A stretch of DNA of 50,367 nt from an uncultured Clostridia bacterium (GCA_945929845.1 CAMEON010000010.1:1-50367), one strand, 5' to 3'; positions 5,496 through 43,289 are shown, numbered from the stretch's first letter. Notes: a model not told the origin generated them from the sequence alone. Numbers and translations: made by a program.

Positions 5496-8021
5496 ATGGC
5501 AAAAGCAAAAGAAATGTGTCTGCATCTCATCAGCAACGCCCACCTGGATCCCATCTGGCAGTGGGAGTGGGAGGAGGGATGCGCCGCCTCAGTGTCCACC
5601 TTCCGCTGTGCCGCCCGGTTCTGCCGGGAGTTTGGCGGCTATGTATTCTGCCACAATGAGTCCCTGATCTACCGCTGGGTGGAGGAGTATGAGCCGACCC
5701 TGTTCCACGAGATACAGGATCTTGTGCGCCTGGGACGGTGGCATATCATGGGCGGCTGGCATGTCCAGCCGGACTGCAATATGCCCTCCGGCGAGGGCTT
5801 CGTCCGGAACATCACCGACGGCCGCCGCTACTTCAGGGAGAAATTCGGGGTGGAGCCCACCACCGCCATCAACTTCGACCCCTTCGGCCACACCCGGGGG
5901 CTGGTGCAGATCCTGGCCAAGTCCGGCTACGACAGCTACCTATTCTGCCGGCCGGATTCGGATCACTGTCCCCTGCCCGCCGAGACCTTTGAATGGGTAG
6001 GCTACGACGGCTCCCGTGTCATGGGTCAGCGGTCGGCCTCCGGCTACGGCACCGCCCTGGGTCACGCCGTGGACAAGGTGCGGGCGGTGGCCGGTGGCAT
6101 CAGCGAGGCCGCCCCCCTGGGCTTCTGTCTGTGGGGCGTTGGCGACCACGGCGGCGGCCCCTCCCGGGAAGACATCCGGGCCATAAATGCCTTCATCGAG
6201 GAGGCCGGGGCTCAAGGCATCCGGGTGATCCACTCCACGCCGGAGGCTTACTTCGCCGATGTCAAGGCCGCCGTCAAGGCCGGGCAGATGACCCTGCCCA
6301 GGGTCAGGGGCGACCTGAACAGTTGGGCACCGGGGTGCTACACCAGCCAGATTCAGATCAAGCAGACCTACCGCCAGGCGGAAAACCAACTGTTCTCCAC
6401 CGAGAAAATGGTGACCCACGCCGTCTCCCTGGGCAAGATGAACTACCCCAAGGCCGAGCTTTCCCAGGCGGTCTACGACCTTCTGACCGTCCAGTTCCAC
6501 GATGTCCTGCCCGGCTCCTCCATTCAGCCCGCCGAGGCCATGGCCATCCGCACCCTGAACCACGGGCTGGAGCTTCTGTCTCGGGTGCGTGTCCGTGCCT
6601 TCTTCGCCCTGGCCGATGGGCAACCGGAAGTCGCCGAGGGAGAGATCCCGGTGCTGGCCTACAACCCTCATCCCTGGCCGGTGGAGGAGGATCTGGTCTG
6701 CGAGTTCATGCTGGCTGACCAGAACTGGTCGGACAGCTTCACCCTGCCGGTGGCCTATAAGAACGGAAAGCTCCTGCCCTCCCAGTGCGAGAAGGAGTAT
6801 TCCAACATCCCTCTGGACTGGCGGAAGCGGGTGGTCTTCCGGGCCACACTGGCACCCATGTCCATGAACCGGTTTGACTGCAAGCTGATCCGGCTGGACA
6901 AAAAGCCGATGCCTGACGCTGTTGCACTGGCCGGGGATGACCCGGAGGTTCTGCGCTTCACCGTCCCCGGCGGCACGCTGGAGATCAGCCGCAAGACCGG
7001 CCTCATCCGCAAATGGACGGTGGACGGAGCCGACTACCTGGCCGACGGGGCCTGCGCCCTGGATGTCATGGCGGATGTGGATGATGCCTGGGGCATGACC
7101 CGCACCGCCTGGCAGGACAAGGTGGGGCAGTTCACCCTGCTGTCCGACGAGGAGGGCAGTCGGTTCTCCGACCTGGATCAGGTGATCCCCGCCGTCCGCC
7201 TTTTGGAGGACGGGCCGGTGCGCACCGTGGTGGAGGCCGTGTTCGGCTACGAGGACTCCCGGGCGGTGGTGCGCTACCTGATCTCCAAGGCGGCCCCCCG
7301 GCTGGATCTGGAGGTTCGGGTGGTCAACGCCACCAAGCGAAAGATGATCAAGCTCCGCCTGCCCCAGGCTCTGCCGGATCCCACCCCCTCCCTGGAGGTA
7401 GCCTTCGGCGAGGAGCCGATGCGTCCGGAGGGCTTTGAGTGCGTGGGTCAGAAGTACCTGACCGTCACCTCCCCCAACGGCCGTCGGCTGACGGTACTCA
7501 ACCGGGGAACATACGGCTACTCCTTTGACCATGGCTCCCTGTATCTGACCCTGTTGCACAGCCCCGGCTACTGCGCCCATCCCCTCGGTGACCGGAAAGT
7601 GATGCCCACCGACCGCCACAGCGAGCACATGGAGCAGGGGGAGCGCACCTACTCCTTCCGCCTGCTGGCCGGGCAGGCATCCGACCGGACGGCGGCCCGG
7701 GAAGCCCTGTCCTTCAACGAGGCCCCCATGGTGCTGAATTTCTTCCCCTCCGGGCAGGGTGCCCAGTCCCCCGCCCCCGCCGAGATGCCCTTTCTGACGG
7801 TCAGTCCCTCCCCTGTGACCATGACCGCCCTCAAGCGCACCGAGGATGGCCGGGATGTCCTGCTCCGGCTGTTCAATCCCTCCGCCGAGGCAGTCTCCTG
7901 CACCGTGTCCTGCCCCACGCTTGGCCTCTCCGCTCCCCTGTCCTTCACCGCCTATGAGGTCAAGACCTTCCGCATCCGCTCCGGCAAGCTGATCCCCTGC
8001 CGGATGGATGAGGAAGAGTAA
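5496..8021 (+). CDS. Glycoside hydrolase family 38 alpha-mannosidase
   Basis: 841 aa; SNAHLDPIWQWEWEEG N-terminal motif, FDPFGH, QFHDVLPGSSI; RBS AAGAGGAG upstream. Confidence 0.92.
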   Translation: MAKAKEMCLHLISNAHLDPIWQWEWEEGCAASVSTFRCAARFCREFGGYVFCHNESLIYRWVEEYEPTLFHEIQDLVRLGRWHIMGGWHVQPDCNMPSGEGFVRNITDGRRYFREKFGVEPTTAINFDPFGHTRGLVQILAKSGYDSYLFCRPDSDHCPLPAETFEWVGYDGSRVMGQRSASGYGTALGHAVDKVRAVAGGISEAAPLGFCLWGVGDHGGGPSREDIRAINAFIEEAGAQGIRVIHSTPEAYFADVKAAVKAGQMTLPRVRGDLNSWAPGCYTSQIQIKQTYRQAENQLFSTEKMVTHAVSLGKMNYPKAELSQAVYDLLTVQFHDVLPGSSIQPAEAMAIRTLNHGLELLSRVRVRAFFALADGQPEVAEGEIPVLAYNPHPWPVEEDLVCEFMLADQNWSDSFTLPVAYKNGKLLPSQCEKEYSNIPLDWRKRVVFRATLAPMSMNRFDCKLIRLDKKPMPDAVALAGDDPEVLRFTVPGGTLEISRKTGLIRKWTVDGADYLADGACALDVMADVDDAWGMTRTAWQDKVGQFTLLSDEEGSRFSDLDQVIPAVRLLEDGPVRTVVEAVFGYEDSRAVVRYLISKAAPRLDLEVRVVNATKRKMIKLRLPQALPDPTPSLEVAFGEEPMRPEGFECVGQKYLTVTSPNGRRLTVLNRGTYGYSFDHGSLYLTLLHSPGYCAHPLGDRKVMPTDRHSEHMEQGERTYSFRLLAGQASDRTAAREALSFNEAPMVLNFFPSGQGAQSPAPAEMPFLTVSPSPVTMTALKRTEDGRDVLLRLFNPSAEAVSCTVSCPTLGLSAPLSFTAYEVKTFRIRSGKLIPCRMDEEE

Positions 8022-23944: not shown

Positions 23945-26900
23945 CTACTCACCGTAAACCATGACCTCGTAAATGCTGAACCAGTTCTCGCCCTCACGCC
24001 ACATACGGATGAAGCGGGCATCGATGTCAAGGTCGGTCAGAAGCACGATCAGCTCTTGCGTGTCACAGGAGCGGAGGGTCTTATAAGTCTCGCCGTCCAC
24101 GGAATACTCAATGCGCCACGGCACCCAGGCGGACTCCAGGTAAAGCTGGATACTGTCCACATGGCACACCCGGCCGAGATCGACCTGCAACCACGCCTCG
24201 CCCGAGGGGAGGGAGCCCCAGCGGGTGGTGAGGTCTCCGTCCACGGCTTTTTCCTTCATGTAGGCCGCTTCCTGGGTGGTGGCGGTGACGGTCTTGCCAA
24301 GGGCAAGATTCTCCCGCTTGGCCGCTTCCCCGCCCTGTGCGATGTCCTCATCCGTGGCTTCATAGACTTCAAACTCGTAGATGGACACGGCGTTTCCGCG
24401 GGTGACATCCACACGGATGTACCGTGCCTCTGTCCCGTACAGATTGATAGAGGTCACACCGGAGCCGTTGTCCATGAACATACTGTAGGCGGTAAAGGTC
24501 TTGCCGTCCTGGGAGAGCAGGATGACGAAGGGCACATGGATGGACTCCCAGCTGATGCGGATCTCGCCGATGGCGTAGGTCTGACCCAGATCCACCTGCC
24601 AGAGGTGGTTGCCGGAGGACAAGCCAAGCCCGCTCCAGCGGGAGATGTAGTCCCCGTCTACGGCTTTGTCCGGCTGAAAAGACTCATTCTCGCTGTAGTT
24701 TGTCCAGGTCGCCTTGTTCAGTGCCAGATTCACCCGGGTACCGGAATCGTCGGGTACCTGGTAGTCCTCCTTGCGGATGTAGTCAAAGGCCGTGTCCGGC
24801 TCACAGCGGTTCTCCACATCCTGCACCACGGTCAGTGCGTCAAGTGTCACGGTCTGTGCAAAGCGCAGATCGGCGGAGGAAGCCCCCACGGAGTAGGTGT
24901 AGTCCCCCTGATCCAATATCCAACGGCTCCCCGCCGTGTCATAGGTCTTGATGGCATCCGCGGAGACCCGGATGCACACCCGCTCGGAGGCACCCGGCTC
25001 TAGGAGAGCGGTCTTGGCAAAGCCGCAAAGCTCCAGCTTGGCCTGCTCAAAGCTGGTCTCCGGCTTGGAAACATAGAGCTGGACGATCTCCCGACCCGCC
25101 ACACGGCCCGTGTTGGTGACAGTCACCCAGGCGGTCACGGTGCCGTCGGCGTTCTGCCGGAGGTTGTAGTCGCTGTATGCAAAGGTGGTGTAGGACAGGC
25201 CGTAGCCGAAGGGGTAGGCCACCTCCACGCCGAAGGTCTCGTAGTACCGGTAGCCCACATAGATGTCCTCGTAGTAGGTCACATCTATACCACTGCCGGG
25301 GAAATACCGATTGGCCGGGGTGGAGCTGTAATCCACAGGCCAGGTGATGGTGGTCTTGGCGGAGGGATTCACCTTCCCCTTCAGGACGGAAGCCACAGCG
25401 GTACCGGTTCCCTGCCCGGCATAGCCGCACCAAAGGATGGCGTCCACCTGGTCACGCCAGGAGACCACCTCGATGGGCGAACCGGTGTTCAGCACCACCA
25501 CCACCTGCTTCCCCTTGGCATGGAAGGCGGCGGAGACACGGTTTATCATATCCCGCTCGGTATCGTTCAGCAGGAAATCCCCCTTGAAGGTATAGCGATC
25601 CGTTCCTTCAGCGGAGCCACGGGAAATGACGATCACCGCCACATCGGCACCCTCGGCCATCTTTTGCGCATACGCCTCCGTGACCACGATATCCAGGGAG
25701 GGGTCTTCGGCGGAGTGGTAGTCGCAATCCTGGAATATGTTGTTCTTGGCATCATATACCGACAGCCCGCTGGCACGGATGATCCCGCTGTAAATGCTCA
25801 CGGTGATGTTGGCATTGACACTGCCGGAGCCGGCACCGCCGTACACAGTCTTGTAGGCTCCGTTTCCGAACAGGGCGACAGAGGTACCGTCAGACAGGGG
25901 CAGGGCGGCGTTCTCATTTTGCAGGAGCACCATGGTGTGGGCGGCCTCCTCGGTGGCCACCGTGTGGTGTTCCTTCAGGCTCACATTGGTGTTCATCTCC
26001 AGCCCCAGGTAGGTGGGGGACTTGACCACGACGGTCAGAATGTTGTAACAGCAGGCATCCAGTGCCGTATCGCTGATCAGCCCTGCCTCATAGGCGGCCA
26101 GCACATCGGCGGGATCGGTGGCATTGCCGGGCATATTGATGTCGTTCATGGCGTTGACCTTGTCGGCCATGGAGCCGGCGGCTCCCCAGTCGGACATGAC
26201 GAAGCCCTCAAAGCCGAACTCCCCCCGGAGGATCCCAGTCAGCAGGTCAGCATTGACCGAGGTGTGCGTGCCGTTGAGGCAGTTGTAGGAGGACATGACC
26301 GTCCACGGGTCGGCATCCGCCACCACCATACCGAAGGCCTTGAGGTAAATCTCCCGCAGGGCACGCTCGGTGACATTGGCACTGACGGAACCCCGGGCGG
26401 ATTCCTGGTTATTGACGGCAAAGTGCTTGATACATGCCCCTGCGCCTGTGGACTGCATGCCCTTCACATAGGGGGACACCATCAGGGCGGTGAGGATGGG
26501 ATCCTCGGAGCTGTACTCAAAGTTCCGCCCGCCCAGCACATTCTTCTGGATGTTCATGCCGGGGGCAAGGACAATGTCAATGCCCAGGGCCAGGGCATCC
26601 CCGCCGATGGACTGGCCGATCCGCTCCGCCAGGGCGGTGTCCCAGGACGAGGACACATTGATGATGGAGGGATACCACACGGAGGTACCGTAACGCACGC
26701 CGGCCGGGCCGTCGTTGACGGTGATGGAGGGCACGCCCAGCCGGTCAATGGGGTAGGTGCCGCCCGACGCATCCGGCTGGACGGTATACTGCACGCCGGT
26801 CACCATATGCGCCTTCTCCTCGGCGGTCATGGCGGCCACCACACAGCGCACGCCGTCCGGGGTGAGCTGGGGCAGTCCGTCCTTCATTTTCAGGGTCATT

Positions 26901-27436
26901 TCGTCCAGTATCTCCCCGTCGGAGGCAGTGACAGTGCCGCTCACCGTCAGCGCACCATAAATCCTGTCCTCGGGGCAGTCAAAGGTGACTGTGGCCTCCC
27001 CGGCGGCCTCAAAGCTCTGCCGGGCGATGACGCCGTCCCCGTCTGCCAGTGTCAGACTGACCGTGCCCGCAAGCCCTGCCTCCTGGACCTGGGCGGTCAG
27101 CTTCAGCGTCACCTTGCCGTCTGTAGCGGTGAGGGTGTGAGCCACCAGGTCGATGCGCTCACCCAGAACCGGGACAGGCGCCTCCGTCTCCGGTTCGGTG
27201 TCCCCAGGCGTGGCAGGTGCCTCGGATTCGGTCTCGGTGGGTGTCCCGGGGTCGGCAGGATCCGTCTCGGCGGGTGTATCGTAGCCATTTTCCGGTTCTG
27301 TTCCTGTCTCTGTCCCCGTTCCTGCCTCTGTTTCTGCGACGGATGCCAAAGGGTCATTCCCCCGTGTGCCGGTGCAGCTTGCCGCAAGCAGCAAAAGCAG
27401 GAGCAGTGCCGCCGCAAGAATCAGTCTGTTTTTCAT
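23945..27436 (-). CDS. Glycoside hydrolase family 3 lipoprotein with two C-terminal F5/8-type C (CBM32-like) domains
   Basis: Lipobox LLLLLAASCTG; GH3 nucleophile region GFEGFVMSDWGAA; KHFAVNNQE; fibronectin-III-like region; two discoidin-like repeats NLALNKATWTNY... and NLALGKTVTATT.... Confidence 0.92.
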   Translation of the reverse strand: MKNRLILAAALLLLLLLAASCTGTRGNDPLASVAETEAGTGTETGTEPENGYDTPAETDPADPGTPTETESEAPATPGDTEPETEAPVPVLGERIDLVAHTLTATDGKVTLKLTAQVQEAGLAGTVSLTLADGDGVIARQSFEAAGEATVTFDCPEDRIYGALTVSGTVTASDGEILDEMTLKMKDGLPQLTPDGVRCVVAAMTAEEKAHMVTGVQYTVQPDASGGTYPIDRLGVPSITVNDGPAGVRYGTSVWYPSIINVSSSWDTALAERIGQSIGGDALALGIDIVLAPGMNIQKNVLGGRNFEYSSEDPILTALMVSPYVKGMQSTGAGACIKHFAVNNQESARGSVSANVTERALREIYLKAFGMVVADADPWTVMSSYNCLNGTHTSVNADLLTGILRGEFGFEGFVMSDWGAAGSMADKVNAMNDINMPGNATDPADVLAAYEAGLISDTALDACCYNILTVVVKSPTYLGLEMNTNVSLKEHHTVATEEAAHTMVLLQNENAALPLSDGTSVALFGNGAYKTVYGGAGSGSVNANITVSIYSGIIRASGLSVYDAKNNIFQDCDYHSAEDPSLDIVVTEAYAQKMAEGADVAVIVISRGSAEGTDRYTFKGDFLLNDTERDMINRVSAAFHAKGKQVVVVLNTGSPIEVVSWRDQVDAILWCGYAGQGTGTAVASVLKGKVNPSAKTTITWPVDYSSTPANRYFPGSGIDVTYYEDIYVGYRYYETFGVEVAYPFGYGLSYTTFAYSDYNLRQNADGTVTAWVTVTNTGRVAGREIVQLYVSKPETSFEQAKLELCGFAKTALLEPGASERVCIRVSADAIKTYDTAGSRWILDQGDYTYSVGASSADLRFAQTVTLDALTVVQDVENRCEPDTAFDYIRKEDYQVPDDSGTRVNLALNKATWTNYSENESFQPDKAVDGDYISRWSGLGLSSGNHLWQVDLGQTYAIGEIRISWESIHVPFVILLSQDGKTFTAYSMFMDNGSGVTSINLYGTEARYIRVDVTRGNAVSIYEFEVYEATDEDIAQGGEAAKRENLALGKTVTATTQEAAYMKEKAVDGDLTTRWGSLPSGEAWLQVDLGRVCHVDSIQLYLESAWVPWRIEYSVDGETYKTLRSCDTQELIVLLTDLDIDARFIRMWREGENWFSIYEVMVYGE

Positions 27437-32247: not shown

Positions 32248-34023
32248 ATGAAACGCGTATCTACACACACACGCAGAGCACTCTGCTTCATCCTGTCCGT
32301 TTTGTTGGTTTTCAGCACCCTGGTTTGCATCACCATCCAGACAGTTTTGGCAGAAGAGCCTGATTCCGTTTATGTCAGCGACCTTGCATGTACCCATTGG
32401 GAAATGATCCAATCGTCCTCAGACAATCCGGCCTCTCCGTATCGTCCGAGCTTCAACTGCAACGAGCAAGGCGGAACGCTTACGATCGCAGGTGTAGAGT
32501 ATGAAAAGGGACTGCGGACCCACCCTGACCAGACAGCTCCGGCAGTGTTCGTGTACGACATCAGTACACTCAATTACAAGTATTTCAGCGCAACCGTCGG
32601 AAAAGACAGCCTCGGCGGAGAGGGTCTGGTCCGGTTTGTGGTTTGCGTAGACGATCAGGAAGTTGCAACCAGCCGTGAACTGGCGTTCGGTGAAAGCCAG
32701 TTCATACAGTGCTCCGTGGAAGGCGGCAGCAAGCTGTCCCTTTATGTGTACAATGTGGATGGCTGTGCGTTCGATTCGTCCGCATGGGGAAATGCTTTGC
32801 TCTCGCAAGAGCCTGTACAGGACACAGCCGATACCGATACGGACGATCCGCACACACCTGCTCCGACAAATCAGTACGACCCGGAAAGGGATGACTATAA
32901 GGGCGAATACCAGCCGATTTATTCCGGAACGGAAGAAGAAATATTCGTAAGCGATCTGAAGTGGAAAAACTGGCGTATGATCGCCTCTCATTCCGGACAG
33001 GCCTCCCCGCAGTATCAGCCATCCTTCAATTGCAACGAAGCAGGAGGAACCATTGTCATCAACAATGTGTCCTATGAGAAAGGGATCCGTACACATCCGG
33101 ATGCGGAAACACCCGCCGATGTCGTGTATGATATCAGTGCGTACAGTGAGCAGTACAGGTACTTCGTTGCGACCGTAGGGCGGGACAGTGCCTCGGCAGG
33201 CGGTGGATTCGTTCGGTTTCAGGTTCTTGTTGACGGAAATCTGATTGCGGAAAGTCCTGATCTGACCCTTGGAGAAGATTATGTGATCTGTGCTGACATT
33301 CATGGGGGAAGCACGCTGACACTGCGGGTGGATCCCACGGCTGACTCCTTCCATCACGATTCCTCGGCATGGGGCAATGCCCGGCTATGCAACATGACTG
33401 TACAGTCGATCGCCTTGGAAGAGGCCCCCTTCAAGCTCAACTACCATGTGGGGGATGACCTGAATCTCGCCGGTTGCTATATCATGGTTGTTTACGATAC
33501 CGGATACAGTTGCACCGAGGAAGTAGACCTATCCATGGTATCCGGCTATGACCTGACGCAGGTAGGCAAACAAACCGTTACCATTACCGCATACGGGCAA
33601 ACGGCTTCCTTTGATATTCAGGTCGTTGCCGACGAAACAGAACCGGAAACCGAAACCGACACAGAGCCAACCACAGAAACAGAAGCAGAACCGACCACAG
33701 AAACAGAAGCAGAAACAGAGACAGAGACAGAAACGGACACGGAAACAGAGACAGAAACAGAAACGGAAACAGAAACAGAGACGGAAGAAGAACCGACCAT
33801 TGAGACCAATGATCCGACTACCGAAGACGGCACGGCTACAATACAGGGAAGCGAAACACAAGCCATAACCACTTCAGCAACCACGGATACGCAGGGAGGC
33901 GGTGGATGTACATCCCTGCTGTCCGGCATGGGACCCGCTGTTGTGCTGTCCTGCGCAGTCGCCCTGGTTTCTATTCGAAAAAAAGGAACACATCATGACC
34001 GTACCGAAAGCACGAGGCGGTAA
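32248..34023 (+). CDS. Secreted surface protein with two NPCBM/NEW2-like domains, Ig-like domain, Thr/Glu repeat stalk and C-terminal TM anchor
   Basis: Signal peptide; two repeats (VYVSDLACTHWEMIQSSSDNPASPYRPSFNCNEQGGTLTIAGVEYEKGLRTHP and IFVSDLKWKNWRMIASHSGQASPQYQPSFNCNEAGGTIVINNVSYEKGIRTHP); TETETE linker; GMGPAVVLSCAVALVSIRKK tail. Confidence 0.85.
   Translation: MKRVSTHTRRALCFILSVLLVFSTLVCITIQTVLAEEPDSVYVSDLACTHWEMIQSSSDNPASPYRPSFNCNEQGGTLTIAGVEYEKGLRTHPDQTAPAVFVYDISTLNYKYFSATVGKDSLGGEGLVRFVVCVDDQEVATSRELAFGESQFIQCSVEGGSKLSLYVYNVDGCAFDSSAWGNALLSQEPVQDTADTDTDDPHTPAPTNQYDPERDDYKGEYQPIYSGTEEEIFVSDLKWKNWRMIASHSGQASPQYQPSFNCNEAGGTIVINNVSYEKGIRTHPDAETPADVVYDISAYSEQYRYFVATVGRDSASAGGGFVRFQVLVDGNLIAESPDLTLGEDYVICADIHGGSTLTLRVDPTADSFHHDSSAWGNARLCNMTVQSIALEEAPFKLNYHVGDDLNLAGCYIMVVYDTGYSCTEEVDLSMVSGYDLTQVGKQTVTITAYGQTASFDIQVVADETEPETETDTEPTTETEAEPTTETEAETETETETDTETETETETETETETEEEPTIETNDPTTEDGTATIQGSETQAITTSATTDTQGGGGCTSLLSGMGPAVVLSCAVALVSIRKKGTHHDRTESTRR
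33640..33795 (+). repeat. Low-complexity Thr/Glu-coding repeat
   Basis: Repeated acagaaacagag/gagaca-type hexamers coding TETETE. Confidence 0.9.
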
Positions 34024-34081
34024 GTCCGTTTCAGCTTTTTGTACCAACGCTTTTATAGCAGAATGGAGATTACAGATTACT

Positions 34082-36334
34082 ATGAAAAAAATTCTACTTA
34101 CCCTGGCTTCCCTGTTTATCTTGCTTTGGATTTCAGGGTGTGTCGGTACCGCTGACCCGTCAGCGCAAACCGGTACCGATGCGGATCATTCGACCGACAG
34201 CATACTTGACAGTACGCCTGAAAGCATAGAAGAAACGCAGACCGAAGCCAAAATGGAAACTGAAACACCCGAAGAATCTGCGGAGGCCGAAACATTGAGA
34301 AATGAGATCCACTATTTTGAAGACTTTCCCCTCGCTGAAACCGCAAGCAAAGGGATTCAACCGACTATCACAGAGAAAAAGACTGCGCTTGCAGAAGCAG
34401 AAAGAATACTGAACGATTTGTCCTTGTTGCCCATTTCCTTTCGGTACGGAGGCACGCAGTTCAAGGGCTTAGGCGAGGCATTCACCGAAAAAGGAAGAAC
34501 AGTCGTAAAAACAGACACCTCTGTATCTGTAACTGTCGTCACAGATTACGATGAAAAGCTGCGTGCGACAGCTGTCATCACGGTATATCCTGATTATTGT
34601 GCCTATGAGTGGACTGTCTGGTTTTCCAATATTGGCAGTGAAAACACGGAGGTTCTCTCAAATGTGAATGCGGCGGACATTGTGTTTATCGGGGAATCTC
34701 CGATGGTTCAGGGCATTACAGGAGACGGTGGAACCGGGGATGGCCCCTACTCGCCATATTGTACGGAGCTGTCATCTGTCGGAACGGCGAACTTCCAAAA
34801 CGAAACCGGCAGGCCCAATGAAGGGCAGAACACATACTATCAGCTCACAACCGAAAATGACGGCGTCTTTATTTCCATTGGGTGGCCCGGTTGCTGGACT
34901 GCATCGTTTGAATATGATGCAAGCACCGCACAGACGCATTTCACTGCCGGGCAGAGGTATCTGAATACCTATCTAAAACCCGGAGAAGCCATCCGAACAC
35001 CTATGATGTCCTTCCTATTCTACAGTGGGAGCGACGAAAACAGGGCGACCAATCTTTGGCGGCATTGGTTTATTGATTGCAATATCCGCACCATTAAGGG
35101 CGAGAAGTTCCAGCCCGCACTGATGAGTTCTGCCTCCTGGAAATACTCTTGCATGGAAAAGGCCACTGATACCAACCAGTGTCAATGGATCCGGGATTAC
35201 ATAAAGGGCGGCGTGAACCTGGATTATTTCTGGATGGACGCCGGGTGGTATTACAAGACCGGCACGACATCCCTGACATCATGGCTGGAATCCGGCAACT
35301 GGAATGTGGACAAGAGCCGGTTCCCTTCCGGAATGGCCGACATCAGCGGATATGCGGCACAGAATCAGTGTAAAACCATTCTTTGGTTTGAGCCGGAGGT
35401 GGTTCGTCTGCGGAATGCGGAGCTGGATCAGGATGGCATCCGCCCGGAATGGATATTGGGTGTCGATGACGGTAACTGGCGACTTGCAGATTACGGGAAC
35501 GATGACTTTGTTGAATGGCTGACAAAGCGGGTGATGTCCATCATGGAGGAGGGCGATATATCCATATACCGCCAGGACTTTGGTTTCAGCTCCCCTGTGA
35601 GTGTGTGGCGTAAGGCAGATGGTGATAAGAGACGCACCGGCATGACAGAGAACAAGTATATTCAGGGTTATTTGAAGTTCTGGGACAATCTGATCCAATG
35701 GAATCCGGATCTGATGATCGATACCTGCGCCAGCGGAGGGAATCGCACGGATCTGGAGACCCTGCGACGCTCCGTTCCCTTGCATAAAACCGACTACGAC
35801 TACTCGAATCAGAATGAGAAACAGGCGATGAGCCAATCCCTCTTTGCCTGGATACCCTATTTTGGTGCGGTCACAACGGGGCCGGATGCCAGTGCCTATA
35901 CCGTATCGGAATACGATCTGTACAGTTCTTTCTGCTCAGCCGTTGTCCTTGACTATGTGCCCAACAGCAATATGAATTGGGATGTGATGGCACGGTTATG
36001 CCAACAATGGGAGGGCATCAAGAACTACTATTACTGTGACTACTACCCGCTCACGGAATGGAGCAATGACAGCACCTCATGGCGCGGATGGGAATTCTTT
36101 GATCCGGAAAGTGACTCCGGATTCTTGCAGATGTTCCGGCCGGAAAACGCCGCATCCGGTTCCTATCGGGTCAAATTGGGCGGCCTTGATCCAGATACCG
36201 TATATGAGATCGTTGATGGGAACGGTACCTGCGTGCTATCCGGAACCGGCTCTCAACTGGCAGACCACGGCTTCGAGATCCAGTTAGGTGCCCGTGAGGC
36301 GATTCTCCTGATGGTACACGCGGAAAAAACCTGA
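34082..36334 (+). CDS. Glycoside hydrolase family 36 (alpha-galactosidase) lipoprotein
   Basis: Lipobox LLWISGC; DYFWMDAGWYY, KTILWFEPEVV, YRQDFGF, LMIDTCASGGNRTDLETLRRSV GH36 signatures. Confidence 0.9.
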   Translation: MKKILLTLASLFILLWISGCVGTADPSAQTGTDADHSTDSILDSTPESIEETQTEAKMETETPEESAEAETLRNEIHYFEDFPLAETASKGIQPTITEKKTALAEAERILNDLSLLPISFRYGGTQFKGLGEAFTEKGRTVVKTDTSVSVTVVTDYDEKLRATAVITVYPDYCAYEWTVWFSNIGSENTEVLSNVNAADIVFIGESPMVQGITGDGGTGDGPYSPYCTELSSVGTANFQNETGRPNEGQNTYYQLTTENDGVFISIGWPGCWTASFEYDASTAQTHFTAGQRYLNTYLKPGEAIRTPMMSFLFYSGSDENRATNLWRHWFIDCNIRTIKGEKFQPALMSSASWKYSCMEKATDTNQCQWIRDYIKGGVNLDYFWMDAGWYYKTGTTSLTSWLESGNWNVDKSRFPSGMADISGYAAQNQCKTILWFEPEVVRLRNAELDQDGIRPEWILGVDDGNWRLADYGNDDFVEWLTKRVMSIMEEGDISIYRQDFGFSSPVSVWRKADGDKRRTGMTENKYIQGYLKFWDNLIQWNPDLMIDTCASGGNRTDLETLRRSVPLHKTDYDYSNQNEKQAMSQSLFAWIPYFGAVTTGPDASAYTVSEYDLYSSFCSAVVLDYVPNSNMNWDVMARLCQQWEGIKNYYYCDYYPLTEWSNDSTSWRGWEFFDPESDSGFLQMFRPENAASGSYRVKLGGLDPDTVYEIVDGNGTCVLSGTGSQLADHGFEIQLGAREAILLMVHAEKT

Positions 36335-36931: not shown

Positions 36932-38488
36932 ATGAAGAAACATTTGACCCTGTTTACCGCTTCTGTTTTAGCGGTGGTTCTCCTTCTGACGGCTACCGGC
37001 TGTAGCCTCTCTGGCGGGAGCCTGAAGATCACCCAGGAGGGTGCGTATTCCCTCACCGTCTCTACCATCCCCACGATTCCGGAAGATGCTGACTTCGGTG
37101 ACACCGATGATTCCGGTCTGGTCGTTATTGTAGAGAAAAAAGGAAACGGCTCACAGTACTCCCTGTTTGACATGACTGCCAACGCCTATGTATCCGGCGC
37201 AAAGCTGGACAAACGGGCCGGAGAAGTGGCTCAGTCCGACATGAGCGTTCTGACGCACGGTGTCTTCTATTCCTTAAAGACCAACATCGACGACAAGACC
37301 GAGGTCACGATCTACACCCGGGACGGAAAGCAGGATCTTGGAGAGGCAGAGGTGGACGGTACTGTCATCGTGGCCAAGGACGGAACCCGGACTTATGTTG
37401 ATGTCCATGGCAATTTGCAGACCGAGACGGATGAGTTCAAGAAAATTGCTCCTTACGGTTCTTATCAGATCGGTGATTACTATGTGACCAACGATATGTA
37501 TGTTTTTGATAAGAACGGAAAGTATCTTTACACACTGAACCTTGAGGCTTCCCTGAATGTTCCTGACGGTGCCGATGAATCCGGATCCTGGACTGTCGGC
37601 AATTTCGCCTTTCTTCAGTACAGCATCCGCCTGCCCGACGACAGCAAGGAGTACGATGTCTATGATCCCTCCGGCAATGCAAAGTACGATCTTGTCACCT
37701 ACCGCCTGGATCTGAAAAACGGCAAGATCACCGAAGTGGATATGGACTATGTCGTAGAAGATTCTTCCGCTACCATCAATGACGGTTGTGTTGCCCTGGA
37801 AGTGCGTGAGATCGAGGATGGCTATATCCTGAAAAACACGATTGTTCAGACCTTCGGCACCGACGGCAAGGTAGCCGTTGACCTGCAGAAGCTGGTTCCC
37901 GGTGCAAAAAGCATTTCCGTGCAGGGTAAGTACCTGATCATCCGGGACAGCGAGAATTCCTACCTCTACGAGGGAAAGAAGGAACTGTATGCCGGCGATT
38001 CCGACTGCGGGTTCTATGGGGATCTGGTCGTGAAAGAATCCGCCACCTCCGTGTATGTATACGACCTGAAAGACAATCTGATCGGAAAGTTTGCGGATGA
38101 GAATATTGAAAGATCTGGTTTGCTTTACAATGGCGACCTTTGGTACGCAACACAGACCGAAGTTGTGGTTCTGCATGGAGATACGAAGAAGGCCGAAACG
38201 GTACTCACCCTAGATCAGTACACCACTGTAACCGACTACTCTTCCTACTACCTGCTGACTACATTTGACGCAACCGAGTCAAAGCCCGGTTCCACACAGC
38301 GGAACACCCTTTACTTCATGGATGATGCACACACGGAAGTTGTCGTGGCCGAAGAACCCACCGTGGTTGCGCTATCCTACGCAAATGGTGCTTCCTACCG
38401 GATCGTGCGGGTTTCGGCAGGCACTTCTTCCTCCAACTCTGTCGTCGCTTACTATCTGGTAAAGAACACATACCCCACGAGAAAGTGA
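36932..38488 (+). CDS. Hypothetical lipoprotein
   Basis: 518 aa; lipobox VLLLTATGCS; no recognised domain; flanked by oppositely oriented family 1 repeats. Confidence 0.8.
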   Translation: MKKHLTLFTASVLAVVLLLTATGCSLSGGSLKITQEGAYSLTVSTIPTIPEDADFGDTDDSGLVVIVEKKGNGSQYSLFDMTANAYVSGAKLDKRAGEVAQSDMSVLTHGVFYSLKTNIDDKTEVTIYTRDGKQDLGEAEVDGTVIVAKDGTRTYVDVHGNLQTETDEFKKIAPYGSYQIGDYYVTNDMYVFDKNGKYLYTLNLEASLNVPDGADESGSWTVGNFAFLQYSIRLPDDSKEYDVYDPSGNAKYDLVTYRLDLKNGKITEVDMDYVVEDSSATINDGCVALEVREIEDGYILKNTIVQTFGTDGKVAVDLQKLVPGAKSISVQGKYLIIRDSENSYLYEGKKELYAGDSDCGFYGDLVVKESATSVYVYDLKDNLIGKFADENIERSGLLYNGDLWYATQTEVVVLHGDTKKAETVLTLDQYTTVTDYSSYYLLTTFDATESKPGSTQRNTLYFMDDAHTEVVVAEEPTVVALSYANGASYRIVRVSAGTSSSNSVVAYYLVKNTYPTRK

Positions 38489-38737: not shown

Positions 38738-39469
38738 TTAACTCTGCGATAACAGTTCCTCGGAAAAGTCCACCTCCGAGATCACACAGTCAATGTCCTT
38801 GAGACTGCATAAATTATGCATATATGACTTGCCGACCTTCTCACTTGCGCACAGCAGAACCGCTTTTTTTGAATGCTTGATCATGGCTTGTCGAACAATG
38901 TTTTCTTCTATCGAAAAATCGCTCAGCATGCCGTCTTTTGAAACACCTCTGCAAGAGAAAAAGGCAATATCGGCATTGTAACAGGAAAGCATATGATTCG
39001 CATCGCTTTCCACCAGCGAGAGGCAGGAGCCGATCACATGTCCTCCCGTAGCATATGTATTGATACCGTATTCCGCCAAAAGCATCACCGCCTTGATGCC
39101 GCTTGTAATCACCGTGATGTTTGACTTTTTTGTAAGGAACGGTATCAGGGCATATGCGCTGGATGAAGCATCGAGCATAACGGTATCGCCGTCTTTCACC
39201 AACTCTGCCGCCTTCCTGGCAATGACGATCTTTGCATCGTAATCCTCAAGCTCCCGTATAGCGAAGGGTATCTTTATTATGGAATTGCTTTGCTCCTCAA
39301 GAACGGCTCCTCCATGGGTCCGTCGCAGAAAGCCCTGACCTTCCAGCTTGTCCAAATCGCGCCGTATGGACGACTCGCTTGCATACAGCTCTCTGGCAAG
39401 CTCCTTTACCGTTACATGTTTGTGCTTCAGGAGACTCTCCAATATACTTTTTTCTCTTTCTTTGCTCAT
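38738..39469 (-). CDS. DeoR family transcriptional regulator
   Basis: ESLLKHKHVTVKELARELYASESSIRRDLDKLEGQGFLRRTHGGAVLEE; sugar-isomerase-like effector domain. Confidence 0.92.
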   Translation of the reverse strand: MSKEREKSILESLLKHKHVTVKELARELYASESSIRRDLDKLEGQGFLRRTHGGAVLEEQSNSIIKIPFAIRELEDYDAKIVIARKAAELVKDGDTVMLDASSSAYALIPFLTKKSNITVITSGIKAVMLLAEYGINTYATGGHVIGSCLSLVESDANHMLSCYNADIAFFSCRGVSKDGMLSDFSIEENIVRQAMIKHSKKAVLLCASEKVGKSYMHNLCSLKDIDCVISEVDFSEELLSQS

Positions 39470-39554
39470 TTTTGCAAACTCCGTTCATGAAATGCGCATA
39501 TTCTTGCGCACTTGATCAATATGATCGGCGACTATTGACTGTTTGTTCGTTTTA

Positions 39555-39583
39555 TTATATCATATACAGTAAGGAAAAGCAAT
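39555..39583 (-). promoter_or_regulatory. Sigma-A-like promoter for deoR-type gene
   Basis: On minus strand TTGCTT-17 nt-TATAAT. Confidence 0.65.
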
Positions 39584-39785
39584 ACAAAAGTGCAGAAACG
39601 GACAAGATCCGAAAAAGCCTCCGGTTTTTGAAAACGGTACCCTCTATGCTTTGCCGCTCTGACAAGCCGCCTTTCCGCCGGGGTCGGAATCGGCGCAAGC
39701 CTTGTGCGTGATGCGGAAAGAAAAGGCGATGACCGTGATGCGGAAAGGAATAGCGAGTACAATGAAAAAAGGAATAGCGAGTACA

Positions 39786-42251
39786 ATGAAAAAAATACTT
39801 TCGTTTGGTGAGATCATATGGGATGTCTATGAGAAGGGGGCCGTGATTGGCGGTGCGGCATTGAACTTTTCCGCACACGCCGCAAGATGCGGACAAGAAA
39901 CATACATGTTCTCTGCCGTAGGACAGGATGCGCTTGGACGGGAGGCAATCGACATCATCCATACATTCGGTGTCAGGACTGATTTTATTAAGCACGCTGA
40001 CAAGGAAACGGGAAGATGCCTCGTGAATCTTGACAAGAACGGAGTGCCGAGCTACCATGTGGAACAGGATGTGGCTTACGATCATATAACCGTTTCCGAT
40101 CATGATATCATTGCCATCAGAGAGATGGCTCCCGATGCGCTGTACTTCGGCACGCTGATACAACGGAGCGCCACATCGCGCGCCGCATTGCACAAGCTTT
40201 GCCAGGCATGTAGCTTCGGTGAGATCATTTGCGATATCAACCTGAGAAAGGACTGTTACGACAGCGCATCGGTTGCATTTTGCCTGAACAACGCAACCAT
40301 ACTTAAGGTGAGTGAGGAGGAAGAGCCTCTTTTGCGCGATATAGATGGGTATGTATGCAACCCAAGCTCCCATCTGTCCATTGCCGAGGCGATATGTGAA
40401 AAGCACCCGCAAATACAGCATATCCTGCTGACATGCGGCGAGCATGGCTGCTTCGTCTATTCCTCACAGACCAAAGCGCACTTTTACGAAAAGGCTAAAA
40501 GTGTACGGGTAGCATCTACCGTTGGTGCCGGCGACAGCTTCACGGCTGCCTTTACAGCATCCTGTCTGTCCGGAAAACCGGTCAGTGAGGCGGTCAGATT
40601 CGGCGTTGCACTCAGCGGATTCGTGGTATCACGAACAGAAGCCATTCCGGATTATACGGTAGAGGACGGGAGAATAAAACCGAAATATCCCCTGCTGCAA
40701 GCGCACAGAGGAGTGGCAGCGGAATATCCGGAAAACACAATGTCGGCGTTTTTGGCTGCGGTGAAGCAGGGATATGATTATATTGAGCTTGACCCCGGCT
40801 ATACGGCCGATCATCAGATCGTTGTGCTCCACGACAGCACGGTAAACAGAACCGCAAGAAACAAGGATGGTACGAATATCGACCGTGAGATAAGGATCCA
40901 TGATATTACCTATGAAGAGGCGTTACAATATGACTACGGAACAGGCTTCTCTCTCAAGTTCAGGGGCGAAATCCTTCCGAAACTTCATGATGTTCTGCGC
41001 CTTGCGCATGAAAACGGCGTCAGGATCAAAATAGATAACAAGGTACAGGGATTCCCTGTGGAAGCATCGGAGGTCCTTTACGCTCTGGTTGGCGAGTTTG
41101 AGGAAGCGGTTGCCCTGACAAGTGACAAAGCCGAAATCATAGAATTCTACGCCAAAAGGTTTCCGAGGGCAGAGTTGCATTATGACGGAGCGGTTGATGA
41201 GGCGGTACTCTCACGGCTCGCCCCACTCGGCACAAGGCTGACGGTGTGGCTACCGTACCGTTCCCCCCGTACCTCATGGGTGAAGGTTCCGTTTGCGAGC
41301 AAGGAGTCCTGCGCCTTGGTAAAGCGGTATGCCAAGCTTGGTATCTGGATCGTTGAAGACTATGAATCCTACAGATACATTTGTGACACATATTCCCCCG
41401 ATGTAATCGAAACGACAGGTATCATAAAGCCGGTAAAGGAGAACGGAAAGCTCTTTGATATGCATGTGCATTCCTGCAATTCCCACGACAGCAAAGCGCC
41501 GGTTGCCGCATGTGCCGAAAGCTGTGTGGAAAAAGGCATCTCAGGGTTTGCTGTGACCGATCACTTTGATGTTCAGTATCATCAGGAGAGGGACATACTC
41601 GGGTATATCGACAGTTCGGTGAAGGAGACGGAAGCCGCCGCGAAAGACTATACGGGTAAAGTTAAGATACGAAAGGGCGTCGAGATAGGGGAAGGCATCT
41701 GGTGTGAAGAATATGTGCAGGAGCTTCTGAGAAGGCATGATTTTGATGTCGTGCTGAGTTCTGTCCATGCGGTGAGATATAAAGACCTGCAAAGACCTTA
41801 TTCCGGAATTGATTTCAGTACGATGAGCGACGAGGATCTGGACGGGTATCTTCGCCTGTACTTCGACGAGGTTTGCACCATGCTTGAAAGGATCCCCTGT
41901 GACATCGTTTCCCACCTTACCTGTCCGCTGAGATACATCAATGGAAAATATAAAAGGGCTGTTGACATGACAAAATACGAAAAGCAGATAGACAAAATAC
42001 TCCGGCTTATCATCGATCAATCATTGGCACTTGAAGTAAATACCTCGTGTGATGCTTTTTTCATGCCGGATGAATGGATCATCAGGAAATACAGGGAGAT
42101 GGGTGGCTATCTTGTTACTGTCGGCTCTGATGCGCACATTCCGCAGAATGTAGGCAAAAACTTTGAGAAAGCGATAGACATGCTAAGAAAGTTGGGCTTC
42201 GAAAATTATTATTACTATGAAAACAGAATTGGAATCCAATGCAAAATATGA
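39786..42251 (+). CDS. Three-domain fusion: PfkB-family sugar kinase + glycerophosphodiester phosphodiesterase (GDPD) + PHP/HisJ-type phosphatase
   Basis: PfkB: GGAALNFSAHAARCG...STVGAGDSFTAAF; GDPD: LLQAHRGVAAEYPENTMSAFLAAVKQGYDYIELDPGYTADHQIVVLHDSTVNRT; PHP: KLFDMHVHSCNSHDSK...VTDHFDV...GVEIGEG...SSVHAV...VTVGSDAHIPQNVG. One uninterrupted frame. The track start is 39702; ATGs at 39702, 39729, 39738, 39762 and 39786 are possible. Confidence 0.92.
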   Translation: MKKILSFGEIIWDVYEKGAVIGGAALNFSAHAARCGQETYMFSAVGQDALGREAIDIIHTFGVRTDFIKHADKETGRCLVNLDKNGVPSYHVEQDVAYDHITVSDHDIIAIREMAPDALYFGTLIQRSATSRAALHKLCQACSFGEIICDINLRKDCYDSASVAFCLNNATILKVSEEEEPLLRDIDGYVCNPSSHLSIAEAICEKHPQIQHILLTCGEHGCFVYSSQTKAHFYEKAKSVRVASTVGAGDSFTAAFTASCLSGKPVSEAVRFGVALSGFVVSRTEAIPDYTVEDGRIKPKYPLLQAHRGVAAEYPENTMSAFLAAVKQGYDYIELDPGYTADHQIVVLHDSTVNRTARNKDGTNIDREIRIHDITYEEALQYDYGTGFSLKFRGEILPKLHDVLRLAHENGVRIKIDNKVQGFPVEASEVLYALVGEFEEAVALTSDKAEIIEFYAKRFPRAELHYDGAVDEAVLSRLAPLGTRLTVWLPYRSPRTSWVKVPFASKESCALVKRYAKLGIWIVEDYESYRYICDTYSPDVIETTGIIKPVKENGKLFDMHVHSCNSHDSKAPVAACAESCVEKGISGFAVTDHFDVQYHQERDILGYIDSSVKETEAAAKDYTGKVKIRKGVEIGEGIWCEEYVQELLRRHDFDVVLSSVHAVRYKDLQRPYSGIDFSTMSDEDLDGYLRLYFDEVCTMLERIPCDIVSHLTCPLRYINGKYKRAVDMTKYEKQIDKILRLIIDQSLALEVNTSCDAFFMPDEWIIRKYREMGGYLVTVGSDAHIPQNVGKNFEKAIDMLRKLGFENYYYYENRIGIQCKI

Positions 42252-42263
42252 GAGGAGATCATG

Positions 42264-43289
42264 ATGAAAGCAGCGGTCTTTTACGGCAAAGAGGATCTGA
42301 GGATCCAGGAGTTGAGCATTCCCGAAATAACAAATAGGAATGATGTGCTCATCAAGGTGAGGGCGTGCGGCATTTGCGGAACGGATATGCATATTTTCGA
42401 TGGGGATGAGGGGGCGGCATCAACGCCCTCGGGAACAGTCCTCGGACATGAGTTTGCCGGTGAAGTTGTAGCAGTGGGCACCGAGGTCAGAAGAGTAAAA
42501 GAGGGTGACAGCGTTTGTGTCGATCCGAATTGGCTTTGTAATACATGTGATTATTGCAAAGAGGGCCTCGGTCATTTTTGTGAGAATATGAACGGTATCG
42601 GTACCACGATGAACGGTGGCTTTGCGGAGTATTGTGTCGTTCCCGAAAGTCAGGTCTACCGTTTCGGGAAGAAGATCACATACGCCCAGGCGGCGATGAC
42701 GGAGCCGGTAGCCTGCTGTCTGCACGGTATGGATATGTGCGAGATCCAGCAAGGAACTGCCGTTGCGATCATAGGCGGCGGCATGATAGGGCTTCTTATG
42801 CTCCAGTTAGCCAGATTGAAGGGTGCCGCAACCATCATACTGATCGAGCCGATTGAAGAAAAAAGAGTGATTGCAAAAAAGCTCGGTGCGGATGTGACCA
42901 TCGATCCCGTGAGTCAAGATGTTCCGGGTAAAATCCGGGAATGCGGTATCACGAGAGTCAGCACCGTGATTGAATGTGTCGGAAAAACATCCACGATGAA
43001 GCAGGCGATCGCTATTGCGGGAAAGAAATCCACCGTCATGCTGTTCGGGCTTTCCAAGCCAAATGATGAGATCCAAGTAAAGCCCTTTGAGCTATTCAAA
43101 AAAGAAATCGTTCTTAAAGCATCGTTTATCAATCCCTATACGCAAAAAAGAGCACTCGCTCTCATCGAGAGTGGCAGAATCGATGTTTCTTCCATGATCT
43201 ACCAATCAATACCCATTGAGGATCTTCCGACCGTTTTATCTGATAAAGTGAAAAGAGCACTCGGAAAATATATTGTCAGTTTCTCATAG
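42264..43289 (+). CDS. Zinc-dependent medium-chain alcohol/polyol dehydrogenase (sorbitol/threonine dehydrogenase-like)
   Basis: CGICGTDMHIFDGDEG, GHEFAGEVVAVG, CNTCDYCKEGLGHFCENM structural Zn ligands, IIGGGMIGLLMLQLA; RBS GAGAGGAG, 12 bp after the fusion gene. Confidence 0.92.
   Translation: MKAAVFYGKEDLRIQELSIPEITNRNDVLIKVRACGICGTDMHIFDGDEGAASTPSGTVLGHEFAGEVVAVGTEVRRVKEGDSVCVDPNWLCNTCDYCKEGLGHFCENMNGIGTTMNGGFAEYCVVPESQVYRFGKKITYAQAAMTEPVACCLHGMDMCEIQQGTAVAIIGGGMIGLLMLQLARLKGAATIILIEPIEEKRVIAKKLGADVTIDPVSQDVPGKIRECGITRVSTVIECVGKTSTMKQAIAIAGKKSTVMLFGLSKPNDEIQVKPFELFKKEIVLKASFINPYTQKRALALIESGRIDVSSMIYQSIPIEDLPTVLSDKVKRALGKYIVSFS

Follow-up and report, generated by a model that had tools for sequence, protein, structure and literature searches.

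A PfkB kinase-GDPD-PHP fusion linked to a dehydrogenase in an uncultured Clostridia bacterium: a possible route for polyol or sugar phosphodiester catabolism

Sugar phosphodiesters can serve as nutrients, as described for xanthosan utilisation, which involves XanP (PMC12807533). In agrocinopine catabolism of Agrobacterium, the AccF phosphodiesterase is followed by the AccG phosphatase, and a sugar phosphate lifts the repression of the operon (PMC4526662). The PHP family exhibits monoesterase and, rarely, diesterase activity (PMC11656708), and BT1757 has been called the fructokinase of a fructan locus (PMC5967196). Here we describe a locus of an uncultured Clostridia bacterium (GCA_945929845.1, CAMEON010000010.1:1-50367; this whole stretch of 50,367 nucleotides is called the window), in which a PfkB-family kinase, a GDPD-fold phosphodiesterase and a PHP/HisJ-like domain are joined in that order in one chain, which is accompanied by a Zn-dependent MDR dehydrogenase and a divergent DeoR-family regulator. 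The fused kinase, diesterase and PHP domains, the dehydrogenase and their orthologues are labelled KIN, GDPD, PHP and MDR. The module probably salvages a phosphate-linked sugar alcohol. No description of the kinase-GDPD-PHP architecture was found in open papers, in agreement with an earlier note on this DNA, which knew of no such protein.

The locus is best read as a cytosolic two-gene operon with its divergent DeoR gene that would salvage a sugar or sugar-alcohol phosphodiester in four ordered steps, a reading to which we give a probability of about 0.42. GDPD would cleave the polyol or sugar phosphodiester, and PHP would dephosphorylate the released phosphorylated polyol or sugar (or glycerol phosphate). 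NAD+-dependent oxidation by MDR would then turn the free polyol into a ketose, and KIN would phosphorylate this ketose (fructose or a close relative) to feed glycolysis. The phosphatase would work on one molecule ahead of the oxidation and the kinase on another after it, so that the pair would not have to run a futile cycle. Searches covered partial samples of 12 genus, 198 family, 396 order and 246 class genomes, and gene neighbourhoods were read out; relatives are cited by genome (G) or locus (L).

The fusion protein

The fusion occupies a single frame (39702-42251, plus strand) with no internal stop, which gives 849 amino acids when counted from the TTG chosen by the open reading frame finder. 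The real start is likely the ATG at 39786, yielding 821 amino acids (39786-42251), because the gap-free alignment to L006 begins exactly there. The ATG at 39762 is a possible alternative, since a 24-bp tandem duplication read at 39744-39791 holds both ATGs in frame and duplicates the start codon. Immediately upstream of this duplication there is a near-repeat of another sequence, GTGATGCGGAAAG. A contig from a separate assembly of an uncultured bacterium, L006, likewise encodes the three-domain protein together with MDR and DeoR, and the two fusions are co-linear across 821 codons with zero gaps. The ratio of nonsynonymous to synonymous substitution rates (dN/dS) between them is 0.18 for the kinase, 0.24 for GDPD and 0.17 for PHP, with 0.13 for MDR and 0.11 for DeoR; all domains of the fusion evolve under purifying selection.

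The source genome assembly is fragmented and 93% complete, and the earlier note had named a fusion made by the assembly among the findings that would overturn its reading. The identical architecture in the L006 assembly, together with related bifunctional fusions, rules this out, and the per-domain dN/dS values (0.17-0.24) rule out a pseudogene or a decaying domain in the window. A scan of GTDB contigs, using patterns derived from the query alone, returned one relative of the fusion.

All three domains are genuine by Pfam (PfkB, PF00294, 130.7 bits against a cut-off of 25.8; GDPD, PF03009, 89.1 against 23.6; PHP, PF02811, 68.3 against 26.4), and the AlphaFold model of the full chain has a mean predicted local distance difference test score (pLDDT) of 93.3 and a predicted template modelling score of 0.73. 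The motifs listed in the earlier note were all located, and the motif set is largely intact. In P0001 numbering, the kinase retains GGAALNF and GAGDSF (275); the first half of GDPD has conserved AHRG (334), PENT (343), ELD (362) and VVLHD (374, with its HD); and the metal-site motifs of PHP are as expected, comprising DMHVHS (586), TDH (619), GVEIGEG (659), SVHAV (687) and GSDAH (808).

The top PDB sequence match of the kinase is 2qhp, a B. thetaiotaomicron fructokinase (E 1e-44), which we take to be BT1757. The same structure ranks first in Foldseek (TMt 0.88, root-mean-square deviation 2.3), and the remaining listed matches reach 0.69-0.81. The fructokinase equivalog PRK09434 of NCBIfam was not reached (53.7 bits against a cut-off of 450). 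One KIN relative of 53% identity (G180) has a GH32 gene nearby. Another, of 51% identity (G028), is close to a GDPD gene and to genes for a Gfo/Idh oxidoreductase and a GH36 alpha-galactosidase. In the latter locus (L055), the GDPD-type gene, the GH36 and Gfo/Idh genes and the divergent KIN are clustered, and this cluster is possibly another version of the pathway that uses a different dehydrogenase.

The Pfam alignment of GDPD spans only the first half of the domain. When modelled alone, the domain has an AlphaFold pLDDT of 96.3, and Foldseek matches complete GDPD barrels. The EIK motif of the GDPD family carries a metal-ligand Glu. The canonical EIK of 2pz0 aligns with KID in the window, and the Lys and Asp of this motif are near-invariant in 21 relatives. 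A tentative proposal, with odds a little below even, is an undescribed catabolic pathway for polyol or sugar phosphodiesters in uncultured bacteria, built on a trifunctional diesterase-phosphatase-ketokinase whose GDPD has a variant active site for recognising a head group different from glycerol phosphate. The catalytic His of AHRG is kept in the window. In three GDPD-PHP fusions it is replaced, giving AYRG (L051/G021), AFRG (L052/G085) and AYGG (L053/G054), and the fused PHP retains most of its motifs despite this replacement. Because the catalytic His is replaced, the GDPD half of these fusions may be inactive, altered or repurposed.

The sequence and fold of the window GDPD resemble those of glycerophosphodiesterases, and glycerate kinase and histidine phosphatase genes lie immediately upstream of the KIN-GDPD fusion at one locus (G283). 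Both observations would suit general scavenging of glycerophosphodiesters, in which GDPD releases glycerol-3-phosphate, PHP yields glycerol, MDR forms dihydroxyacetone and the PfkB kinase forms dihydroxyacetone phosphate. Such a glycerol branch would, however, waste ATP by dephosphorylating glycerol-3-phosphate and then phosphorylating dihydroxyacetone, although established metabolism allows direct oxidation of glycerol-3-phosphate; moreover, the kinase is nearest to fructokinase rather than dihydroxyacetone kinase. We consider this branch unlikely.

PHP passes the cut-off of the HisJ subfamily model TIGR01856 (hisJ_fam, 106.1 bits against 90.2), and it falls below the histidinol-phosphatase equivalog PRK05588 (114.2 bits against 321). 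Its place in the HisJ family, and the presence of hisD on another contig of the same genome, would suit a reading in which the parts are co-regulated and share a fusion history while catalysing separate reactions, with PHP acting, for example, as a histidinol phosphatase; fusions can reflect expression coupling only. Against this, the genome has another PHP protein, and the three domains are repeatedly reshuffled among themselves, in company with one and the same type of MDR and DeoR, which makes separate reactions improbable.

Recurrence of the parts across relatives

Each pair of domains occurs fused without the third. KIN-GDPD is followed by MDR in G283, and KIN-PHP occurs with MDR and a divergent DeoR in G032. 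GDPD-PHP is found in many genomes, including G118 and G950, where MDR accompanies it (in G950 also with a divergent DeoR). GDPD-PHP, MDR and KIN are consecutive in G014 and G373, the latter again with a divergent DeoR; MDR and PHP occur with a divergent DeoR in G146, and MDR with KIN in G129 and G020. Fusions in all pairwise combinations argue strongly for a single shared pathway and, together with the conserved neighbours, bear out the functional link among the parts that had been proposed. Because the same parts recur fused or adjacent across many genomes, their association is beyond chance, and the architecture is a real, conserved one built from known domain families.

MDR orthologues are present in 12 of the 198 family genomes, usually beside or in a gene run with KIN, GDPD, PHP or a different PfkB subfamily (FRK-type). 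PHP co-occurs with MDR in 9 of these 12 genomes compared with 11 of 186 others (Fisher p = 3e-8), and KIN in 8 of 12 compared with 18 of 186 (p = 1e-5); both tests ignore phylogeny and use presence lists that depend on a score cut-off. The FRK-type kinase, whose best NCBIfam match is fructokinase, stands beside MDR in the G145 and G159 modules and adjoins PHP in G951, and these neighbours reach only 195-207 bits against the fructokinase cut-off of 450. This replacement of the kinase suggests a ketose product. The ketose-kinase step is supported indirectly by these kinases, by the relation to 2qhp and by the GH32 and GH36 neighbours of the KIN relatives.

The fusion of kinase and phosphatase without GDPD in G032, and the adjoining KIN and PHP genes of G321 with no nearby MDR, can also be read as a swap of phosphate position, in which GDPD frees an unusable sugar phosphate, PHP strips the phosphate and the kinase re-phosphorylates the same sugar usefully, with MDR as a side branch. 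All close relatives of the fusion examined here nevertheless have MDR as a companion, which leaves this swap an outside chance.

A supported clade of the KIN tree holds the window together with L006 and G032, with G283 next at weak support. Supported clades also unite the window, L006, G118 and G283 in the GDPD tree, and the window, L006, G118 and G032 in the PHP tree; the same loci are neighbours in the poorly resolved MDR tree. This history fits either one ancestral triple fusion with differing losses or several fusions.

Other genes recur near the module. In G108, G152 and G054 (L048, L050 and L053), the GDPD-PHP fusions adjoin a histidine-phosphatase-family gene, to which the histidine phosphatase of G283 (L058:7112-7750) is homologous, and lie near a divergent calcineurin-like phosphoesterase. 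The module operon of G159 (L062:2659-9253) contains three consecutive related genes of 722-724 amino acids; the 724-amino-acid member that was searched has no Pfam or PDB match, and neither does a neighbour of 753 amino acids in G145.

Dehydrogenase, regulator and surroundings

The second gene of the operon starts at 42261, or at 42264 as in L006, 12 bp past the fusion stop. The uninterrupted frame, the two-gene operon and the divergent DeoR were all confirmed in the window as the earlier note had described them. MDR has the features of a polyol-type Zn-dependent enzyme, namely the catalytic Cys, the GHE and EP motifs, the structural Cys4 site and a glycine-rich nucleotide motif, and its sequence shows CGICGTD (36), GHE (62), CNTCDYC (93), FCE, TEP (147) and GGGMIG (172). 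The GHE and TEP motifs are typical of polyol dehydrogenases. The use of NAD+ is suggested by an acidic residue that follows the second Rossmann strand (LIEP). The closest PDB match, 4ej6, is an uncharacterised enzyme, and MDR reaches no NCBIfam equivalog cut-off. Few orthologues reach 60% identity or more, and most of those are linked to module parts; a phylum-level search at E 1e-90 returned only the genome of the window.

Among NCBIfam models, MDR scores best against IolM (219 bits), and the top sugar-kinase model for the fused kinase is IolC (81 bits); both scores fall far short of the cut-offs. These matches point towards an inositol-type route, in which GDPD would cut glycerophosphoinositol, PHP would dephosphorylate inositol phosphate, MDR would oxidise inositol or inosose and an IolC-like kinase would act on a ring-opened acid. 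The structural match of the kinase is instead a fructokinase. The classical Iol route is unlikely because IolD (TIGR04377) is above its cut-off in none of nine module genomes, and we regard an inositol-type scheme as quite unlikely overall.

The DeoR orthologues of L006 (93% identity), G032 (79%), G373 (59%), G146 (57%) and G950 (57%) each adjoin a module fusion or PHP gene. Between regulator and fusion, a promoter scan found a promoter-like TTGACT-17-TATCAT at 39535-39563. Intergenic regions of the window and of L006, L047, L059 and L064 were compared visually and through the k-mers they share. The window, L006, G032, G146 and G373 have in common a promoter-like core and repeats rich in A/T that resemble TGCKCATTT. 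The repeats are candidate DeoR operators, and DeoR would control the operon and sense a phosphate of the pathway.

Table 1. Features of the module and its control region in the window.
Feature	Position	Strand	Evidence
Domain 1 of the fusion, PfkB-family kinase, ketohexokinase/fructokinase-like	39786..40661	+	PF00294 130.7 bits; 2qhp match
Domain 2 of the fusion, GDPD-fold phosphodiesterase	40689..41435	+	PF03009 89 bits; AlphaFold; Foldseek to 2pz0 and other GDPDs
Domain 3 of the fusion, PHP/HisJ-family metallophosphoesterase	41448..42248	+	PF02811 68 bits; TIGR01856; alignment to 2yxo, 4gc3
Zn-dependent MDR dehydrogenase (polyol/threonine-dehydrogenase type), operon gene 2	42261..43289	+	PF08240, PF00107; best PDB 4ej6
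DeoR/GlpR-family regulator, divergent from the fusion	38738..39469	-	Pfam DeoRC 143 bits, HTH_DeoR 58 bits
Intergenic control region	39470..39785	.	Promoter scan; intergenic comparison; sequence

Elsewhere in the window, a distant GH36/melibiase-like gene (33902-36334, plus strand) lies upstream of the module, and a lipoprotein-like gene without a Pfam match (36932-38488) lies between the two. A lipoprotein-like family of about 480-500 amino acids (cluster C4) recurs near stand-alone GDPD, KIN or PHP genes (L055, L060, L078-L080 and L083). The window also contains a GH38 alpha-mannosidase-like gene (5496-8021, plus strand) and a 1163-amino-acid GH3 protein with F5/8 type C domains (23945-27436, minus strand).

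The proposed route and known systems

Several observations weigh against the four-step phosphodiester route. No transporter is present in the operon of the window or of its closest relatives, where a linked ABC transporter of the agrocinopine type was looked for. Every component stays below the equivalog cut-offs, with a pass only for the broad model of the HisJ subfamily. The NCBIfam scores of KIN are scattered over IolC, ribokinase and others, and its assignment as a putative ketose kinase stays provisional because fructokinase is not separable from IolC or ribokinase by these scores. GDPD-PHP fusions lie far from MDR or KIN in several genomes (G1021, for example), and MDR orthologues have no nearby module gene in G369, G401, G498 and G466. 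No KIN orthologue is found in G118 or G950, where other PfkB kinases are present, and G032 has no GDPD of the module type, only distant GDPDs. The full four-step route is not obligatory because several lineages lack one activity. In G283, which lacks the fused PHP, a PHP relative is encoded on another contig (40%, E 2e-61).

The earlier note had proposed a channelled catabolic pathway for a sugar or polyol phosphodiester. The linkage of the parts holds and catabolism itself is plausible, whereas substrate channelling finds no support, because the domains can occur apart and some lineages lack one of them. Glycerol-3-phosphate as the product is likewise unsupported, as is any particular substrate. 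The fusion makes an unassigned route of carbon and phosphate salvage testable in one protein. If the substrate is indeed a sugar-alcohol phosphodiester, the module would act on a class of nutrients so far documented mainly for plant-associated bacteria.

The kinase has its best sequence and fold match in 2qhp (NP_810670.1), which is a stand-alone protein, whereas the window kinase is fused to GDPD and PHP and scores below the fructokinase equivalog cut-off. GDPD shares its barrel and its HRG, PENT, E-D and HD motifs with T. tengcongensis 2pz0 and other GDPD enzymes; in the window the canonical EIK gives way to the conserved KID, and the domain is fused to a kinase and a phosphatase. PHP has the fold family and motifs of the histidinol phosphatases 2yxo and 4gc3, but it is fused and scores below the histidinol-phosphatase equivalogs. 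Elen0235, a PHP diesterase in the account cited in PMC11656708, belongs to the same fold family, and the window PHP differs from it in being fused.

At the level of the pathway, XanP releases a sugar phosphate from a sugar phosphodiester that serves as carbon source, which parallels the proposed route; however, XanP is a 2H-phosphoesterase, and the GDPD-derived protein of that system is a synthetase, not a hydrolase. AccF and AccG share the logic of a cytosolic diesterase followed by a phosphatase on a sugar phosphodiester and offer a precedent for both of these opening steps as well as for a sugar phosphate acting as inducer. They are encoded by separate genes with a dedicated ABC transporter and with no linked MDR or kinase described, whereas in the window diesterase and phosphatase are joined to a kinase in one chain beside an MDR gene.

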